From Desulfomicrobium escambiense DSM 10707 (GTDB taxonomy: Bacteria; Desulfobacterota; Desulfovibrionia; Desulfovibrionales; Desulfomicrobiaceae): a stretch of DNA of 64,000 nucleotides. The notes beneath the pieces are model-generated. The model was given only the letters and a program-made list of their open reading frames with translations, ran no database searches and had not been told where the DNA came from. The position numbers were made by a program, and so were the translations under genes. Positions 9,400-42,053 of this stretch are shown piece by piece; position 1 is the stretch's first letter; each line of letters opens with the position of its first letter. Location of the stretch: assembly GCF_000428825.1 (NCBI RefSeq), contig NZ_AUAR01000016.1:1-64000 (forward strand), read 5' to 3'.

Positions 9400-9918
9400 A
9401 TGGAACTGAACAAATTTTTGACCGACAATCAGAAGGGCATTTGTGCGCAATGGACAGACGCCATCATCAAAACCTATCCCGACGAAGGCGCCAAATTTTT
9501 TTCCGGATCTTCCAACCAGTTCGCCAATCCGGTCGGGCACACCTTTCGAAACAACATTGAGAAAATATTCCTGATCCTTGCGCGTGGCGGAGACGTCGCG
9601 GAGTGTTCCACGGATCTGGACGGAATTCTGCGCATCAGGGCGGTGCAGGGTTTCGCGCCGTCCGTGGCGCTCAGCTTTCTGCCGGCGCTGAAGGAGATCG
9701 TACATCGGGAGTTGGCCAAGACCGGCCGGCCGGAGGAGATGGCTGAGGCGCTGCACGACTGGAACGTGCGCGTCGATCGTCTGACCATGGTCGGATTTGA
9801 TCTGTATATGGCGTGCCGCGAGGTTCTGTGGAAGCAAAAGGCCAATCAATTGTACAACAGAACACACAAGCTGCTTGAGCGAGCAAATTTGCTGAAAGAC
9901 GAGGAGGTAGCGGGGTAG
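9400..9918 (+). CDS. RsbRD N-terminal (RsbRD_N) domain protein upstream of dsrM
   Basis: This 172-aa all-helical, soluble protein resembles the RsbRD_N domain, the non-heme-globin-like sensor half of some stressosome (RsbR-type) proteins. Here it stands alone without the STAS domain. Visible features are an amphipathic start (MELNKFLTDNQKGICAQWTD), a hydrophobic core and a charged C-terminal helix. It is 51 bp upstream of dsrM on the same strand, so cotranscription is likely. From that place it may sense redox or small-molecule state for the Dsr complex, but no partner is proven. The family assignment is by eye. Confidence 0.72.
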   Translation: MELNKFLTDNQKGICAQWTDAIIKTYPDEGAKFFSGSSNQFANPVGHTFRNNIEKIFLILARGGDVAECSTDLDGILRIRAVQGFAPSVALSFLPALKEIVHRELAKTGRPEEMAEALHDWNVRVDRLTMVGFDLYMACREVLWKQKANQLYNRTHKLLERANLLKDEEVAG

Positions 9919-10983: not shown

Positions 10984-12611
10984 TGTCTGATCTGCCACGC
11001 CCTGAAAAGCTTTTTGCGAGTATCGACTACACGCCCCCCAAGGCGGACTGGATGGACGTGCCGACGGTGATCAAGCCCGGCCGCTACTGCTACGCCGCCA
11101 ACCCCGACAGCGTGAACTACGTCGGCCTGCCCAACGCCCATAAGTGGAACCCTCTCGACGAGGATTGGGGTCTCCCCGAGAACTGGCAGGAGATCATTTT
11201 CAACGGCCTGCGCGAACGGCTGCACAAGTTCCGCTCCTTCAAGATCTTCATGGACATCTGCGTGCGCTGCGGCGCCTGCGCGGACAAGTGCCATTTCTTC
11301 ATCGGTTCCGGCGACCCCAAGAACATGCCGGTGCTGCGCGCCGAACTGCTGCGTTCCGTGTACCGCGGCGAGTTCACGACCTTCGGCAAGATCCTTGGCC
11401 GATTCGCTGGCGGCCGCAAGCTGACGGCTTCCGTGCTCAAGGAGTGGTGGTACTACTTCTTCCAGTGCTCCGAGTGCCGCCGCTGTTCCGTGTTCTGCCC
11501 CTACGGCATCGACACGGCCGAAGTGACCATAATCGGCCGCGAACTGCTGAACCTTCTGGGCCTGAACATCGACTGGATCGCAACGCCGGTGGCCAACTGC
11601 TACCGCACCGGCAACCACTTGGGCATCCAGCCTCACGCTTTCTTCGACATGATCGACTTCTTCTGCGACGACATCGAAGACATCACCGGCATCCGGCCCG
11701 AGCCGAACTTCAACCAGAAGGGCGCCGACATCCTCTTCGTCACGCCTTCGGGCGACGTCTTCGCCGATCCCGGCACCTACACCTGCATGGGCTACCTCAT
11801 GCTCTTCGAGTACCTCAAACGCGAGTACGGCCTGAGCGTGACCTGGTCGACCTACGCGTCCGAGGGCGGCAACTTCGGTTTCTTTACCTCGCACGAAACC
11901 ATGAAGCGCCTGAACTCCAAGATGTACATGGAAGCCGACCGCCTGGGCGTGAAGTGGATCCTCGGCGGCGAATGCGGTCACATGTGGCGCGTCATCCATC
12001 AGTACATGGACACCCTGAACGGCCCCGACTTCCAGTCCTCGCGCATGGAAACCCCGGTCAACCCCATCACGGGCACGGTGTTCAAGAACGCGGCCAGCAC
12101 CAAGATGGTCCACATCGCCGAGTTCACCGCCGATCTCATCAAGCACGGCAAGCTTAATCTGAACAAGAAACGCAACGCCAATGTGCATCTGACCTGGCAC
12201 GACTCCTGTAACCCCGCCCGCGGCATGGGTCTCCTCGACGAGCCCCGTTACGTGGCCAAGAGCGTGGTCGAGAAGTTCACCGAGATGCCCGAGGGAACCA
12301 TCCGTGAGCAGACCTTCTGCTGCGGAGGCGGCGCCGGCCTCAACGCCGGCGAGAACGACGAGCTGCGCATGATGGGCGGCCTGCCCCGCGCCAACGCCGT
12401 GAAGTACGTGCACGAGAAATACGGCGTGAACATGCTGGGCTGCGTCTGCGCCATCGACCGCGCCGTGCTGCCCAACTCCATGGCGTACTGGGTGCCTGAA
12501 GTCAGCGTCTGCGGCCTGCACGAACTTGTCGCCAACGCGCTGGTTTTCCCTGGCGAAAAGGAACGTGAAACCGATCTGCGTGGTGAAGACCTGCCCGGGG
12601 AGGATGAATAA
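10983..12611 (+). CDS. dsrK: DsrK, HdrD-like catalytic iron-sulfur subunit
   Basis: DsrK is the cytoplasmic HdrD-like subunit, proposed to reduce the DsrC trisulfide. Two ferredoxin-type [4Fe-4S] motifs are visible: CVRCGACADKC (C93, C96, C99, C103) and CSECRRCSVFC (C162, C165, C168, C172). The C-terminal half has CCG-domain cysteines that would hold the catalytic cubane (HDSCNPARG; TFCCGGGAG; GCVCAID). Length is 542 aa, as in other sulfate reducers. The stop codon shares a base with the dsrJ start. Confidence 0.97.
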   Translation: MSDLPRPEKLFASIDYTPPKADWMDVPTVIKPGRYCYAANPDSVNYVGLPNAHKWNPLDEDWGLPENWQEIIFNGLRERLHKFRSFKIFMDICVRCGACADKCHFFIGSGDPKNMPVLRAELLRSVYRGEFTTFGKILGRFAGGRKLTASVLKEWWYYFFQCSECRRCSVFCPYGIDTAEVTIIGRELLNLLGLNIDWIATPVANCYRTGNHLGIQPHAFFDMIDFFCDDIEDITGIRPEPNFNQKGADILFVTPSGDVFADPGTYTCMGYLMLFEYLKREYGLSVTWSTYASEGGNFGFFTSHETMKRLNSKMYMEADRLGVKWILGGECGHMWRVIHQYMDTLNGPDFQSSRMETPVNPITGTVFKNAASTKMVHIAEFTADLIKHGKLNLNKKRNANVHLTWHDSCNPARGMGLLDEPRYVAKSVVEKFTEMPEGTIREQTFCCGGGAGLNAGENDELRMMGGLPRANAVKYVHEKYGVNMLGCVCAIDRAVLPNSMAYWVPEVSVCGLHELVANALVFPGEKERETDLRGEDLPGEDE

Positions 12612-31239: not shown

Positions 31240-31276
31240 GGGTGCAGGGGGCGCGCCCCCTGCCCGCCGGAGGCAT
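31240..31276. repeat. Dispersed hairpin repeat, copy 1
   Basis: GGGTGCAGGGGGCG / CGCCCCCTGCCC forms a near-perfect hairpin followed by the fixed tail GCCGGAGGCAT. The same unit recurs at 39291-39326 and 39652-39690. It lies between the convergent tex and EamA genes, 14 bp after the EamA stop, so it may act as a terminator or REP-like mRNA end. Confidence 0.85.
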
Positions 31277-38351: not shown

Positions 38352-38586
38352 GGAGCCTCCTTTGGGTATGGGTGAGATTCGACGGGTTGGCCGGTGTGGC
38401 CTGAAATCGTTCTTGGCATGGTTCAAAAACAGGGAAAATGCAATACGGCAGTCGAAATTCGGGCTCTTCGTTCCTATAGTGGGATTATTGGTTCGCTCAG
38501 CGGATCGATAAAATGTGCACGACCTGCAAAAGACGTGGGCAAACGTCTGTCCGCAGTGTAGAAGGAAGCCAAAAAAGGAGGTCGAC

Positions 38587-39036
38587 ATGGGTACCTGCGA
38601 TCTGAAGGAATCGGCTGCTTTCATAACGTCCAAGGACACTCTTGACGGCGTGTATCCGGGTCTCATCCTGGGCATCAACGCCTGTCGCATCGGGATGAGC
38701 GCCAGCGTGTTCTACACGTTCATGGGCATCAATGTCATTCGCAAGGGGTGGGCGGAAAAGATCAAATTTCATCCACCGGGCTTCATGGGCGCGCTGCCGG
38801 GCATGTCCAGCGTGGCTACCTGGATGATGAAGCAGAAAATGGGCAAGGCCAACGTGCCGTCGGTCACGGATCTGCAGGAGGTCGCGGCCATAGAGGGAGT
38901 TCGCTTCGTTGCCTGTCGCATGACCGTGGACATGATGGGAATCAAGGAGAGCGATTTTATCGACGGCGTGACCATCATGACGGCCGAGGAATTCCTGCGG
39001 CACGCCAAGGACTGCAAGATTCTTCTCTATACCTGA
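38587..39036 (+). CDS. DsrE2-like (DsrE/F/H superfamily) sulfur-carrier protein
   Basis: This 149-aa protein resembles DsrE2-type proteins that bind or transfer sulfane sulfur. It has FMGINVIRKG, the long MGALPGMSSVATWMMKQKMG segment and the motif ACRMTVDMMGI with C110, the position of the reactive cysteine in the family; C33 is a second candidate. The start follows a good SD (AGGAGGTCGAC). It is not next to a dsr or rhodanese gene. A weak hydrophobic segment around 23-50 might bring it to the membrane. Confidence 0.8.
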   Translation: MGTCDLKESAAFITSKDTLDGVYPGLILGINACRIGMSASVFYTFMGINVIRKGWAEKIKFHPPGFMGALPGMSSVATWMMKQKMGKANVPSVTDLQEVAAIEGVRFVACRMTVDMMGIKESDFIDGVTIMTAEEFLRHAKDCKILLYT

Positions 39037-39062
39037 CCTGACGTTTTGGGCGATGGCGGTTG

Positions 39063-39263
39063 TGTGCTGTGTGCGGGGGGCGCGAGTCGGCGTGGTCCGG
39101 GCCGGGGCTGCCGGAACTTCTTCGCGGGCCTCGTAATGCTTCCCGGCCTTGCGGTTTGGCGGGGTTGCGGTCCCCGGTTCGGGGAGCGGCCGGGAAGCAA
39201 ACGATGCCTGGCTCAGTCGGACAGCCGACAACCCCGGCCCGGACCACGCCGACCCGCTTGAGG
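39063..39263. repeat. 201-bp structured direct repeat, copy A
   Basis: This segment is repeated at 39332-39532 with about seven mismatches and no length change. Within it, GTCGGCGTGGTCCGGGCC near the left end is inverted near the right end (GGCCCGGACCACGCCGAC), and GCTTCCCGGCC / GGCCGGGAAGC forms an inner stem, so the unit can fold into one long hairpin. There is no SD-led ORF in it. It lies in the non-coding stretch 39037-39692. Confidence 0.92.
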
Positions 39264-39290
39264 ACGAGCACAAGGTTGAGATGAGTGAAC

Positions 39291-39326
39291 GGGTGCAGGG
39301 GCGAGCCCCTGCCCGCCGGAGGCATT
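39291..39326. repeat. Dispersed hairpin repeat, copy 2
   Basis: GGGTGCAGGGGCGAGCCCCTGCCC forms a hairpin, followed by the same tail GCCGGAGGCATT as at 31240 and 39652. This copy sits between the two 201-bp repeats, not next to a gene end. Confidence 0.85.
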
Positions 39327-39331
39327 GCTTT

Positions 39332-39532
39332 TGTGCTGTGTGCGGGGGGCGCGAGTCGGCGTGGTCCGGGTCGGGGCTGCCGGAACTTCTTCGCGGGCCT
39401 CGTAATGCTTCCCGGCCTTGCGGTTTGGCGGGGTTGCGATGCCCGGTTCGGGAGACGGCCGGGAAGCAAACGATGCCTGGCTCAGTCGGACAGCCGACAA
39501 CCCCGGCCCGGACCACGCCGACACGCTTGAGG
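39332..39532. repeat. 201-bp structured direct repeat, copy B
   Basis: Second copy of the unit at 39063, offset by exactly 269 bp. The terminal inverted arms and the inner GCTTCCCGGCC / GGCCGGGAAGC stem are kept. Most of the few differences cluster in the loop region around 39430-39455, as expected when the stem is selected and the loop is free. Confidence 0.92.
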
Positions 39533-39604
39533 TGGTGCGGGAGGTTTGGGAAGAAAGTGAACGAGGTGCAGGGGACGCGTCGGAGGCAAGAGTTGGAACA
39601 AGAA

Positions 39605-39636
39605 AACGCCCCGGTTTGCACCGGGGCGTTCTTTAT
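39605..39636 (+). terminator. Terminator-like hairpin in the repeat region
   Basis: AACGCCCCGG (39605-39614), 6-nt loop, CCGGGGCGTT (39621-39630), then CTTTATTT. The stem is strong and the T tract imperfect. It faces + and has no coding gene just upstream except the DsrE-like gene 570 bp away, so it might end a non-coding transcript of the repeats. Confidence 0.6.
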
Positions 39637-39651
39637 TTAGCCTACATGAAT

Positions 39652-39690
39652 GGGGTGCAGGGGGCGAGCCCCCTGCCCGCCGGAGGCATT
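39652..39690. repeat. Dispersed hairpin repeat, copy 3
   Basis: GGGGTGCAGGGGGCGAGCCCCCTGCCC plus the tail GCCGGAGGCATT. It ends 2 bp before the stop codon of the glycyl radical enzyme, so like copy 1 it lies immediately downstream of a minus-strand gene and may form the 3' end of its mRNA. Confidence 0.88.
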
Positions 39691-39692
39691 TC

Positions 39693-42053
39693 CTACGCCA
39701 TCTCCTGCTCGGTCCGCCGGATGATCTCTTCCTGGTGGTCGAGGTCGAGGTCGACGAAGTAGTCGCTGTAGCCGGCCACGCGGACGAGGAGGTTGCGGTA
39801 TTCGTCGGGGTTGGCCTGGGCGTGGCGCAGGGTTTCGGTGTCCACGACGTTGAACTGGATGTGGTGTCCGTTCAGGCGGAAGTAGGTGCGGATCAGGCGG
39901 CAGAGCTTGTCGAGGTCTTGGTCGGTTTTGAGAACGTCCGGGAGGAAGCGCTGGTTGAGGAGGGTGCCGCCGGACTTGATCTGGTCCATCTTGGACAGGG
40001 ACTTGACCACGGCGGTGGGGCCGTTTCGGTCCGCGCCGTGGGAGGGCGAGGTGCCGTCGGACTCGGGCAGGTGCGCGAGGCGACCGTTGGCCGAGGCGCC
40101 GAGCATCTTGCCGAAGTAGACGTGGCAGGTGGTGGAGAGCATGTTCAGGTGGTAGGCCGTGCCCTTGGTGTTGGGGCGCCCGTCGATGGCGGTGAAGAGG
40201 GAGTCGTAGACGCGGCGCATGATGTCGTCGGCGCGGTCGTCGTCGTTGCCGAAGAAGGGGGTCTTGTTCCAGAGTTTGAGGCGCAGGGCCTCGGCGCCGT
40301 CGAAGTTGGCGCGCAGGGACGTCAGGAGACGGTCCATGGGGACGGCGGCGGTGTCGAAGACGTGGGTCTTGATGGCCGAGAGGCTGTCGGTGACGGTGCC
40401 GATGCCGCAGCACTGGATGTAGTTGGTGTTGTAGCGCGGGCCGCCGTTGTAGTAGTCGAGGCCCTTCTCGATGCAGTCGTGGATGACCGTGGACAGGAAG
40501 GGCGCGGGCGAGTGGGCGGCGTACATGCGTTCGATGTAGTTGTTGACGCGGACCTTGAGGTCCACGATCCATTCGAGCTGGCGGGTGAAGGCGGCGTAGA
40601 GGTCGTCGAAGGTCGCGAAGGCGAGCGGGTCGCCGGTGCGCGGGCCGATCTGGCGGTCCGTGAGCTGGTCACGGCCGTCGTTCAGGGCCAGTTCCAGGAC
40701 CTTGGGCACGTTCAGGTAGCCGGTCAGGATGTAGGCTTCCTTGCCGAAGGCGCCGGTCTCGATGCAGCCCGAGCAGCCGCCCTCGCGGGCGTCCTCCACG
40801 GTCTTGCCGACGCGGATCTGCTCCATGACCACGGCGTCGGTGTTGAAGACGGACGGGTAGCCGTAGCCGCTCTTGATGACGCGGGCGGCGGCCTTGAGGA
40901 AGGCGTCGGGGGTCTTCTGGCTGACGTGGACGCTGGTCTGGGGCTGCAGGAGGCGCAGTTCGTCCACGACCTCGAGGATGAGGTAGGAGACGTCGCTCAC
41001 GCCGTCGGAGCCGTCGCGTTTCAGCCCGCCCAGATTGATGTTGGTGAAGTCGTTATAAGTGCCGCTCTCCTTGGCGGTGACACCGACCTTGGGCGGGGCG
41101 GGGTGGTTGTTGACCTTGATCCACAGGCAGCAGAGCAGCTCCTTGGCCTTTTCGCGGGTCAGGGTGCCGTCGGCCAGGCCCTGCTCGTAGAAGGGCGCGA
41201 GGTGCTGGTCCAGGTGGCCGGGGGTCATGGCATCCCAGCCGTTCAGTTCCGTGATGGTGCCCAGGTGCACGAACCAGTACATCTGCAGGGCTTCCCAGAA
41301 GTTTCGCGGGGCGTGGGCCGGGACGCGGCGGCAGACCTCGGCGATGCGCGTCAGTTCGGCCTTGCGGACGGGGTCGGCTTCGGTCTTGGCCCTTTCCCAG
41401 GCCAGGTCGGCGTGGCGCTCGGCGAAGACGATGGCCGCGTCGCAGGCGATGTCCATGGCCCGGAGCTGTTCGGCGCGATACGAGGCCAGGGGGTCGTGCA
41501 GGTAGTCCAGGCAGGCCAGGCGGTCGGCGATGCGCGTTTTGAAGTCGAGCATGCCCGTGGAGTAGATGGTGCCGTCCAGAGCCGTGTGGCCGGGTGCGCG
41601 CTGCTCCATGAACTCGGTGAAGAGGCCGGCCTCGTAGGCGGCGCGCCATTCGTCCGGAACCTGGGAGAAGACGCGGTCGCGCATGGACCGGCCCGTCCAG
41701 TAGGGGATGACCTCGCGCTCGTAGGCGGCGATGTCCTCTTCGGACACATGGTAGCGGGTCATGGGCCGGGAGTTCAGCACGCGCAGGTCCTCGGCCGAGT
41801 GGCAGGTCAGCTCGGGGAAGGTCGGCACGCATTTGGGCCGCGGGCCGCGCTCGCCGACGATGAGCTCGCCGTCGCCGAGCCAGAGGGTCTTCTTTTCGCA
41901 AAGGTCCTTGAAGACCATGGCTCGCAGCACGGGCAGGGAATGTTTGCCGTAGTTCTCGCGGTAGAAGGCCGTTTCGAGGAGGGCGCGCTCGATGGAGATG
42001 GATGGCTCGGTCTCGAAGCTTTCCCGGCGCAGGCGGGCGATTCTGTCGTTCAT
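39693..42053 (-). CDS. hypD: Glycyl radical enzyme, trans-4-hydroxy-L-proline dehydratase type
   Basis: The 786-aa protein is a PFL-like glycyl radical enzyme. The radical Gly is G761 in VRVAGYSDYF; the active-site Cys/Glu are C430 and E432 in GCSGCIETGAFGKEAYILTG. This context, together with FTEFMEQRAPGHT, fits hydroxyproline dehydratase (which makes pyrroline-5-carboxylate) better than the choline, glycerol or isethionate lyases as I remember them. The substrate assignment needs a structural comparison. It starts directly after the activase stop. No proC or other proline gene is in the window. Confidence 0.85.
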   Translation of the reverse strand: MNDRIARLRRESFETEPSISIERALLETAFYRENYGKHSLPVLRAMVFKDLCEKKTLWLGDGELIVGERGPRPKCVPTFPELTCHSAEDLRVLNSRPMTRYHVSEEDIAAYEREVIPYWTGRSMRDRVFSQVPDEWRAAYEAGLFTEFMEQRAPGHTALDGTIYSTGMLDFKTRIADRLACLDYLHDPLASYRAEQLRAMDIACDAAIVFAERHADLAWERAKTEADPVRKAELTRIAEVCRRVPAHAPRNFWEALQMYWFVHLGTITELNGWDAMTPGHLDQHLAPFYEQGLADGTLTREKAKELLCCLWIKVNNHPAPPKVGVTAKESGTYNDFTNINLGGLKRDGSDGVSDVSYLILEVVDELRLLQPQTSVHVSQKTPDAFLKAAARVIKSGYGYPSVFNTDAVVMEQIRVGKTVEDAREGGCSGCIETGAFGKEAYILTGYLNVPKVLELALNDGRDQLTDRQIGPRTGDPLAFATFDDLYAAFTRQLEWIVDLKVRVNNYIERMYAAHSPAPFLSTVIHDCIEKGLDYYNGGPRYNTNYIQCCGIGTVTDSLSAIKTHVFDTAAVPMDRLLTSLRANFDGAEALRLKLWNKTPFFGNDDDRADDIMRRVYDSLFTAIDGRPNTKGTAYHLNMLSTTCHVYFGKMLGASANGRLAHLPESDGTSPSHGADRNGPTAVVKSLSKMDQIKSGGTLLNQRFLPDVLKTDQDLDKLCRLIRTYFRLNGHHIQFNVVDTETLRHAQANPDEYRNLLVRVAGYSDYFVDLDLDHQEEIIRRTEQEMA

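Follow-up and report, generated by a model that had tools for sequence, protein, structure and literature searches.

The question raised by this locus is what the two nearly identical, hairpin-forming units at 39063-39263 and 39332-39532 represent within the window (the whole stretch of DNA that was analysed, 64,000 nucleotides from Desulfomicrobium escambiense DSM 10707). The earlier note, made from the sequence alone, had described a tandem pair of 201-bp units about 96% identical and 269 bp apart, with inverted ends of 18 bp or longer, an inner stem, and differences falling mostly in the loop. All of these claims held. Units A and B were identical at 194 of 201 bases, with a start-to-start distance of 269 bp, and five of the seven differences were located within the apical loop (39170-39186). 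The outer arms extended over 33 nt, with a complementarity of 91% in copy A and 88% in copy B; the previously noted outer-arm 18-mer was intact in copy A and carried one change in copy B (39371). The inner stem (TGCTTCCCGGCC/GGCCGGGAAGCA) was perfectly paired in both copies. A terminator-like hairpin that had been placed at 39605 was present but statistically unremarkable, the shuffled region averaging 0.9 such sites. The features of the locus are the following.

39079-39263, minus strand (the more probable functional strand): copy A, folded unit; covariance model (CM) match 39095-39244, 149.7 bits; minus-strand MFE -130.5 kcal/mol
39082-39114, no strand: copy A outer-stem arm 1, pairing with 39225-39257; inverted repeat, 91% complementary
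39111-39135, no strand: copy A conserved core, plus-strand 5' side (CCGGAACTTCTTCGCGGGCCTCGTA); many columns invariant or nearly so
39137-39148, no strand: copy A inner-stem arm 1, pairing with 39188-39199, 100%; covaries across the family
39149-39187, no strand: copy A variable apical loop, between the inner-stem arms; holds five of the seven A/B differences
39188-39199, no strand: copy A inner-stem arm 2, 100% inverted repeat with arm 1
39200-39229, no strand: copy A conserved core, plus-strand 3' side (AACGATGCCTGGCTCAGTCGGACAGCCGAC); many columns invariant or nearly so
39225-39257, no strand: copy A outer-stem arm 2, same inverted repeat as arm 1
39278-39328, no strand: linker between the tandem copies, with a shortened REP-like hairpin copy inside (about 39292-39324); differs among orthologous arrays
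39348-39532, minus strand: copy B, folded unit; CM match 39364-39513, 153.8 bits; minus-strand MFE -114.4 kcal/mol
39351-39383, no strand: copy B outer-stem arm 1, pairing with 39494-39526, 88%
39406-39417, no strand: copy B inner-stem arm 1, pairing with 39457-39468, 100%
39457-39468, no strand: copy B inner-stem arm 2, inverted repeat with arm 1, 100%
39494-39526, no strand: copy B outer-stem arm 2, inverted repeat with arm 1, 88%
39605-39630, plus strand: terminator-like hairpin; one found, shuffles mean 0.9

When copy A was folded with short flanks (39060-39277) and compared with dinucleotide shuffles, z was -6.53 for the plus and -9.17 for the minus strand, and none of 200 shuffles was as stable on either strand. 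A search of both strands over 38950-39750 found no sigma-70-like promoter. A REP-like hairpin repeat (GGTGCAGGGGRCGMGYCCCCTGCCCGCCGGAGGCA), separate from the element, occurs in the window at 31241-31275 and 39654-39688, with the shortened form at about 39292-39324; it gave two window matches and none in shuffles, has more matches in the genus, and was also found after several element copies. A DsrE/DsrF-like gene (Pfam DrsE_2) lies at 38584-39036; of the orthologous loci read, this one and that of G007 are the only two to have it. The window starts in the interior of a 5S rRNA gene (1-76).

The units proved to belong to a dispersed family. A DNA search of the same genome returned 26 matches, several of which were pieces of one copy or arm-to-arm matches, and a plus-strand covariance model built from 21 copies (R1) gave 23 matches, corresponding to 21 copies and two antisense readings of copies. 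CM matches were obtained in 20 of 41 genomes, this one included. Among the 16 Desulfomicrobium genomes, ten had 6 to 52 matches (D. baculatum had 42), one had 3, and five had none; the highest count, 67, came from one genome of the Desulfonatronum genus group. Wider searches gave matches in 16/199 genomes of a class sample, in 33/297 genomes of the order, and, in a phylum sample of 395 (some of them order members), in the source genome only; these searches scored 7-15 candidates per genome, and weak copies may have been missed. An exact-pattern scan of named genomes found 71 stretches, in Desulfomicrobium, Desulfonatronum, Desulfonatronaceae, Desulfovibrionales, and 'Proteobacteria KR46'. In the searches made, the family was found only within the order Desulfovibrionales. 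In locus L149 of G026 (9451-9840 and 11421-12400), distant variants are arrayed in tandem about every 225 bp; a copy near 9451-9655 there has 35-nt outer arms that are 100% complementary and is followed by a second, partial copy.

Rfam (4227 families, release 15) gave no match over the element in the window at the gathering score; for eight loci searched to E 10 the sub-threshold matches fell outside the cores, and ten further loci gave no match over the element. A phage, plasmid, or virus origin was dropped: blastn found no match of the unit in phages or of 38500-39700 in plasmids, and the core pattern had no exact match among viral contigs. The open-licence literature searched (titles and abstract openings) contained no description of the element; PMC3733652 does not mention Desulfomicrobium, Desulfovibrio, or Desulfonatronum, and PMC10969869 does not contain 'Desulfo'.

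Across the family, the shared core on the plus strand approximates GYCGRAACTYCYTCGCSGGCCTCGTA ... CAAACGATGCCTGGCTCRGTCRGACAGYCGAC, and the flanking stems vary between copies, differing along their whole length, yet stay largely complementary. The predicted fold is a single rod, in which a long outer stem leads into a conserved internal-loop core and then an inner stem of about 12 bp, capped by a variable apical loop. In alignment A3 (113 rows, 111 distinct, run unfiltered), 94.1% of cells were paired, compared to 74.4% after shuffling (0/500 shuffles reached the observed value) and 28-42% in slid controls. Cells with two-sided change numbered 906 vs 276, 30 of 43 pairs showed two-sided change (shuffled mean 26.4; 7/500 reached 30), and the covariation score was 0.495 vs 0.161. 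A3 had been fitted to a model, which favours structure; the margin was nonetheless large. Other counts derived from A3 omit two antisense rows as well as duplicates or truncated rows by differing rules, leaving 106, 105, 99, 108, or 107 rows, and the covariance model R2 was built from an unfiltered alignment (A4) holding three antisense rows.

Compensation was then examined at orthologous loci, with copies grouped by their flanking DNA and the comparison limited to 26 stem pairs, each pairing in more than 85% of copies. Over divergence classes set by flank identity (tandem, >=93%, 86-93%, 78-86%, and <78%, with 27, 26, 104, 42, and 4 copy pairs), compensated changes per stem pair were.007,.010,.046,.092, and.096, while one-sided changes were.084,.110,.127,.089, and.125. 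Copy pairs overlap in these counts, and one orthologous group holds 37 copies. Because compensated changes rise with divergence and one-sided changes stay flat, broken pairs arise freely but are compensated in place. In 290 linked copy pairs, 999 changes that break or mend a pair exceeded 352 compensated ones (plus-strand wobbles, 177), so the constraint on any single copy is mild. The fold is kept in place by compensatory change at orthologous loci, and covariation beyond both the shuffled and the slid controls meets one criterion for a structured RNA. The suggestion in the earlier note of a structured RNA thus held at the level of the family; the transcription of any copy remains an inference. 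That note had also held that, with no other copy, no transcript, and no stem covariation, the pair would be left as a simple local duplication. The checks on copies and on covariation went against this refutation, the former through 21 copies in the genome and many in relatives and the latter through strong covariation. The tandem-hairpin observation was real and understated: family size, the probable minus-strand orientation, and the fact that the pair is one state of an array of 0 to 4 copies were absent from it.

Several lines of evidence point to the minus strand, the complement of the one printed, as the likely functional strand. One-sided intermediates gave G·U on the minus vs the plus strand at 65:33 (binomial p 0.0016), each locus, pair, and type being counted once over 40 locus groups and 28 strand-neutral stem pairs; over overlapping copy pairs the ratio was 316:95. 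The bias came from the outer stem (plus-strand G·U 19, A·C 90, by cells), and the inner stem showed none (G·U 17, A·C 18). Plus-strand core pairs, which lay outside the wobble test, leaned the opposite way (G·U 57, A·C 29). Desulfonatronum-type loci favoured the minus strand by 75 to 39 in 54 copies, partly by inheritance. The minus strand was the more stable one in 75/105 copies by z and in 60/105 by MFE, and RNAalifold on 107 rows gave -133.8 for minus vs -125.9 for plus. Covariance models of either strand (R1 plus, R3 minus) scored the copies near-equally and did not resolve the strand. Gene orientation was 32 co-oriented vs 11 opposite by copy; by locus it was 9 vs 4, which was not significant (p 0.27).

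Read on the minus strand, the core is YGA-C-Y-GA opposite GA-R-G-R-A, that is, tandem G·A pairs separated by a C-G pair and a covarying Y-R pair. Among 108 copies, the first motif was found in 90, the second in 94, and both in 80; at the Y-R position, these 80 copies had U-A (46), C-G (29), U-G (4), or C-A (1). Tandem G·A pairs alternating with Watson-Crick pairs are typical of protein or tertiary contacts.

Evidence of mobility came from relatives. In Desulfonatronum, and in single copies from two other genera (G035 and G017), the core lies inside small elements of mostly 220-265 bp bounded by terminal inverted repeats (TIRs). With type A ends (CAGGGCAnnnTTGTTCTC), a 10-bp target-site duplication (TSD, >=9/10) was seen in 9/15 copies vs 1/210 control flank pairs; with type B ends (GTAACTACTCAG), an 8-bp TSD (>=7/8) in 10/21 vs 4/420; and with type D ends (GGGnGCATTAGnAnTTTGTCCC), an 8-bp TSD (>=7/8) in 6/7 vs 0/42. 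These counts leave out copies without a recognisable TIR at both ends. The type B total of 21 retains a spurious row (L095 plus, length 0), and one counted TSD (AAAAAAAC, L134) is of low complexity. The type D TIR was defined after the sequences had been read (21 loci offered), an earlier and shorter definition having given 0/5 (55 loci offered); the counted copies include L091, with a different inner TIR, and L110, which is short. Type B ends may be IS66-like and type A ends ISAs1-like. Elements whose interiors are unrelated also have type A ends, so these ends and the core are separable. Type A-like termini were likewise seen around short core-less elements filled with ATCGAAATCG-like repeats (L246:205-404 and L247:1652-1840), and three G027 copies show a putative further end type (CCTGGATCCGTGAAA).

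At least three different transposon termini carry the same core in Desulfonatronum, with TSDs of 10, 8, and 8 bp, and the MITE criterion of TIRs plus a TSD of constant length is met in relatives of the unit. The earlier reading of the pair as a non-autonomous element was upheld in this sense, at the level of the family; the mobility of the Desulfomicrobium copies themselves was not shown. In the flanks of these copies and at orthologous loci, no TIR or TSD was recognised by eye, although no systematic TSD scan was made, and the sole element-free orthologue (G009) was too diverged to place an insertion. Since TIRs and TSDs were demonstrable only in relatives and not in their own genus, we stop short of classing the window copies as MITEs.

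The Desulfomicrobium copies are intergenic and often in tandem. Sequence conservation among 99 copies fades about 22 bases before and about 31 bases after the CM match, and beyond these limits an ungapped comparison covering 70 bases on each side found nothing above 0.3 bits. The motif CGCTTGAGG (<=2 mismatches, within 45 bases) was located 3' of the element in 56/99 copies vs 7/99 shuffled. Of 33 loci sorted by gene orientation, 16 were convergent, 9 co-oriented, 4 opposite, 2 divergent, and 2 tied; a crude gene caller was used, which missed the DsrE-like gene, so the window copies were labelled co-oriented though they lie between convergent genes. By eye, and without a count, a terminator-like hairpin was noted on the plus-strand 5' side of the copies in L009, L010, L011, and L020, which lie at or near its T-run.

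The window locus, which is flanked by a solute-binding-protein gene and a glycyl-radical-enzyme gene (Pfam), holds two copies here and in G014, G002, G007, and G015, one in G001, three in G010, and four in G013. G008 has a single damaged copy, G009 has none, and the G003 contig ends too early. The damaged orthologous copy (L230) lacks one arm of its inner stem and some of the core. We infer that arrays at this locus grow and shrink at an old site. At a second locus, two copies are flanked by hrpB and selB, and in this genome a 4.2-kb module lies between them, containing DUF4123, Tli4-like, and LCAT/PGAP1-like domains (Pfam). The module is also found in G008, where the contig starts in the first copy, and is absent from G013 and G014; in G015, a wide distance separates hrpB from selB, and each gene has copies next to it at the break. 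Recombination between repeats is the simplest cause of these rearrangements. A T6SS effector/immunity-like module with these same domains was observed between or beside copies at two loci of this genome (L010:3532-7574 and L013:3248-6225), the Pfam assignments covering the L010 set only; G013 and G014 lack it at the first of the two.

Partner proteins were sought by clustering the ORFs within 2.5 kb of 144 core matches at 119 loci (one of which had none). Some ORFs of the largest cluster (71 loci) overlap the element, and that cluster is unresolved; in the second (18 loci), one member reads as an ABC-transporter ATPase. No nuclease, reverse transcriptase, or transposase was noticed as a recurrent partner near the core matches, most neighbouring ORFs being unannotated. 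A RAYT was considered as mobiliser and set aside: Y1_Tnp genes occur in 28/41 genomes, but the element was present in only 1/16 fetched neighbourhoods, a subset of the total.

The reading that we prefer is that of a structured RNA module, carried by MITEs, which acts in cis within read-through transcripts. We give it a probability of roughly 0.5, its transcription and function being inferred. In this view, a dispersed element of about 200 bp, specifying one folded rod, would be present here as a tandem pair, the folded strand probably being the minus strand of the window with its core of alternating Watson-Crick and tandem G·A pairs. In the absence of transcript data, we suppose that the RNA would be made mainly by read-through from neighbouring genes. 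Given that few loci are divergent (2/33) and that no promoter-like site was found at the window locus, the copies are most simply viewed as RNA domains flanking the 3' ends of transcripts. In that position the element may serve as a structured RNA acting in cis, in the 3' flank or between genes, in the processing, protection, or insulation of transcript ends, and a nuclease or a protective protein could bind a rod that carries a tandem-G·A module. Copies would have spread on transposons and then been kept in place, with tandem arrays growing and shrinking by homologous recombination. A bolder version, for which the evidence at present falls a little short, is that the family represents a new class of structured RNA in bacteria, built on a tandem-G·A core and belonging to the Desulfovibrionales: a portable module in at least three DNA-transposon chassis that spread to dozens of loci and was then selected at individual loci.

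The main rival, which remains possible, is that the selected object is folded single-stranded DNA, as in attC sites or the ends of HUH transposases, with a strand-specific hairpin serving a recombinase or transposase during replication or transfer and selection keeping a DNA rather than an RNA fold. Wobble pairs are indeed rare (G·U 36 and A·C 108 of 3152 outer- and inner-stem cells), copies lie at rearrangement breakpoints with the 4.2-kb module between two of them in some species only, and a one-strand bias suits a single-stranded DNA substrate as well as RNA. However, the Desulfonatronum core moves within inverted-repeat termini (8-10-bp TSDs), where a hairpin mobility of its own is unneeded; the element occurred in a single one of the 16 fetched Y1_Tnp (HUH) neighbourhoods; and the breakpoints are accounted for by homologous recombination between repeats.

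A family without function is unlikely. It would be a selfish MITE whose arms are kept complementary by template switching or gene conversion between inverted arms. In its favour, pair-breaking changes are common among related copies (999 vs 352 compensated), stems differ over their whole length, and linkers and copy number vary between species. Arm-to-arm correction, however, predicts strand symmetry and not a 65:33 wobble bias, and it leaves unexplained both the conserved non-palindromic core common to families of the order and the presence of that core in several transposon termini.

A trans-acting small RNA, encoded by many paralogous genes each with its own promoter, would suit the high copy number, the conserved core, and the mostly intergenic placement, but we also consider it improbable, as the window locus has no promoter-like site, no position farther out than 22 bases before or 31 bases after the CM match exceeds 0.3 bits among the 99 copies (70 bases compared on each side), and species differ in copy number at one locus, from 0 to 4. 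That meaningless palindromic DNA was simply duplicated locally is all but excluded: the pair is a true tandem duplication, but 21 dispersed genomic copies, many in relatives, and strong covariation contradict it.

Among known systems, the cis-acting RNA module that we favour finds its closest functional likeness, by analogy, in MITE families with folded, processed transcripts, such as the Correia elements of Neisseria, which can bind and be cut by RNase III (PMC2649163; PMC10969869). Like these, the element is short, intergenic, gene-less, multicopy, and hairpin-forming, with TIRs and TSDs in Desulfonatronum; it differs in that a single internal core and its covarying stems recur across families of an order and within several different termini. 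Ordinary MITEs conserve their termini, and bacterial MITEs are usually recognised by their ends, the interiors being disposable. BOX elements (named in PMC10969869) are, in Streptococcus pneumoniae, intergenic and structured, with variable tandem unit copies and a modular boxA-B-C organisation; here whole folded units are repeated instead of boxA-B-C modules, although no sequence comparison was made. REP/BIME and RAYT-linked repeats are likewise palindromic and intergenic, and REPs often lie in convergent regions. REPs measure 20-40 bp (PMC3733652), and the unit of about 200 bp fails this size criterion for a REP or REPIN; it also fails that of RAYT flanking, with one positive among 16 fetched Y1_Tnp neighbourhoods. 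In comparison with integron attC sites, a cassette-like context was found at one locus only. HEARO and omega RNAs are structured RNAs on mobile elements in many copies; the element differs from them in having no Rfam match and no adjacent nuclease gene noticed, most neighbours being unannotated.

The unusual point is the combination of a conserved core fold with different transposon ends; because the interior fold is conserved while the ends differ, something selects the fold. The many natural variants, the orthologous loci with 0-4 copies, and the culturable D. baculatum make it testable whether bacterial small mobile elements spread functional RNA domains. CORE-SINEs of eukaryotes combine a conserved central RNA domain with varied mobilising ends. 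The likeness is one of analogy only, the termini here being those of DNA transposons without retrotransposition; if true, the portable RNA module would be an equivalent in bacteria of what CORE-SINEs are in eukaryotes.
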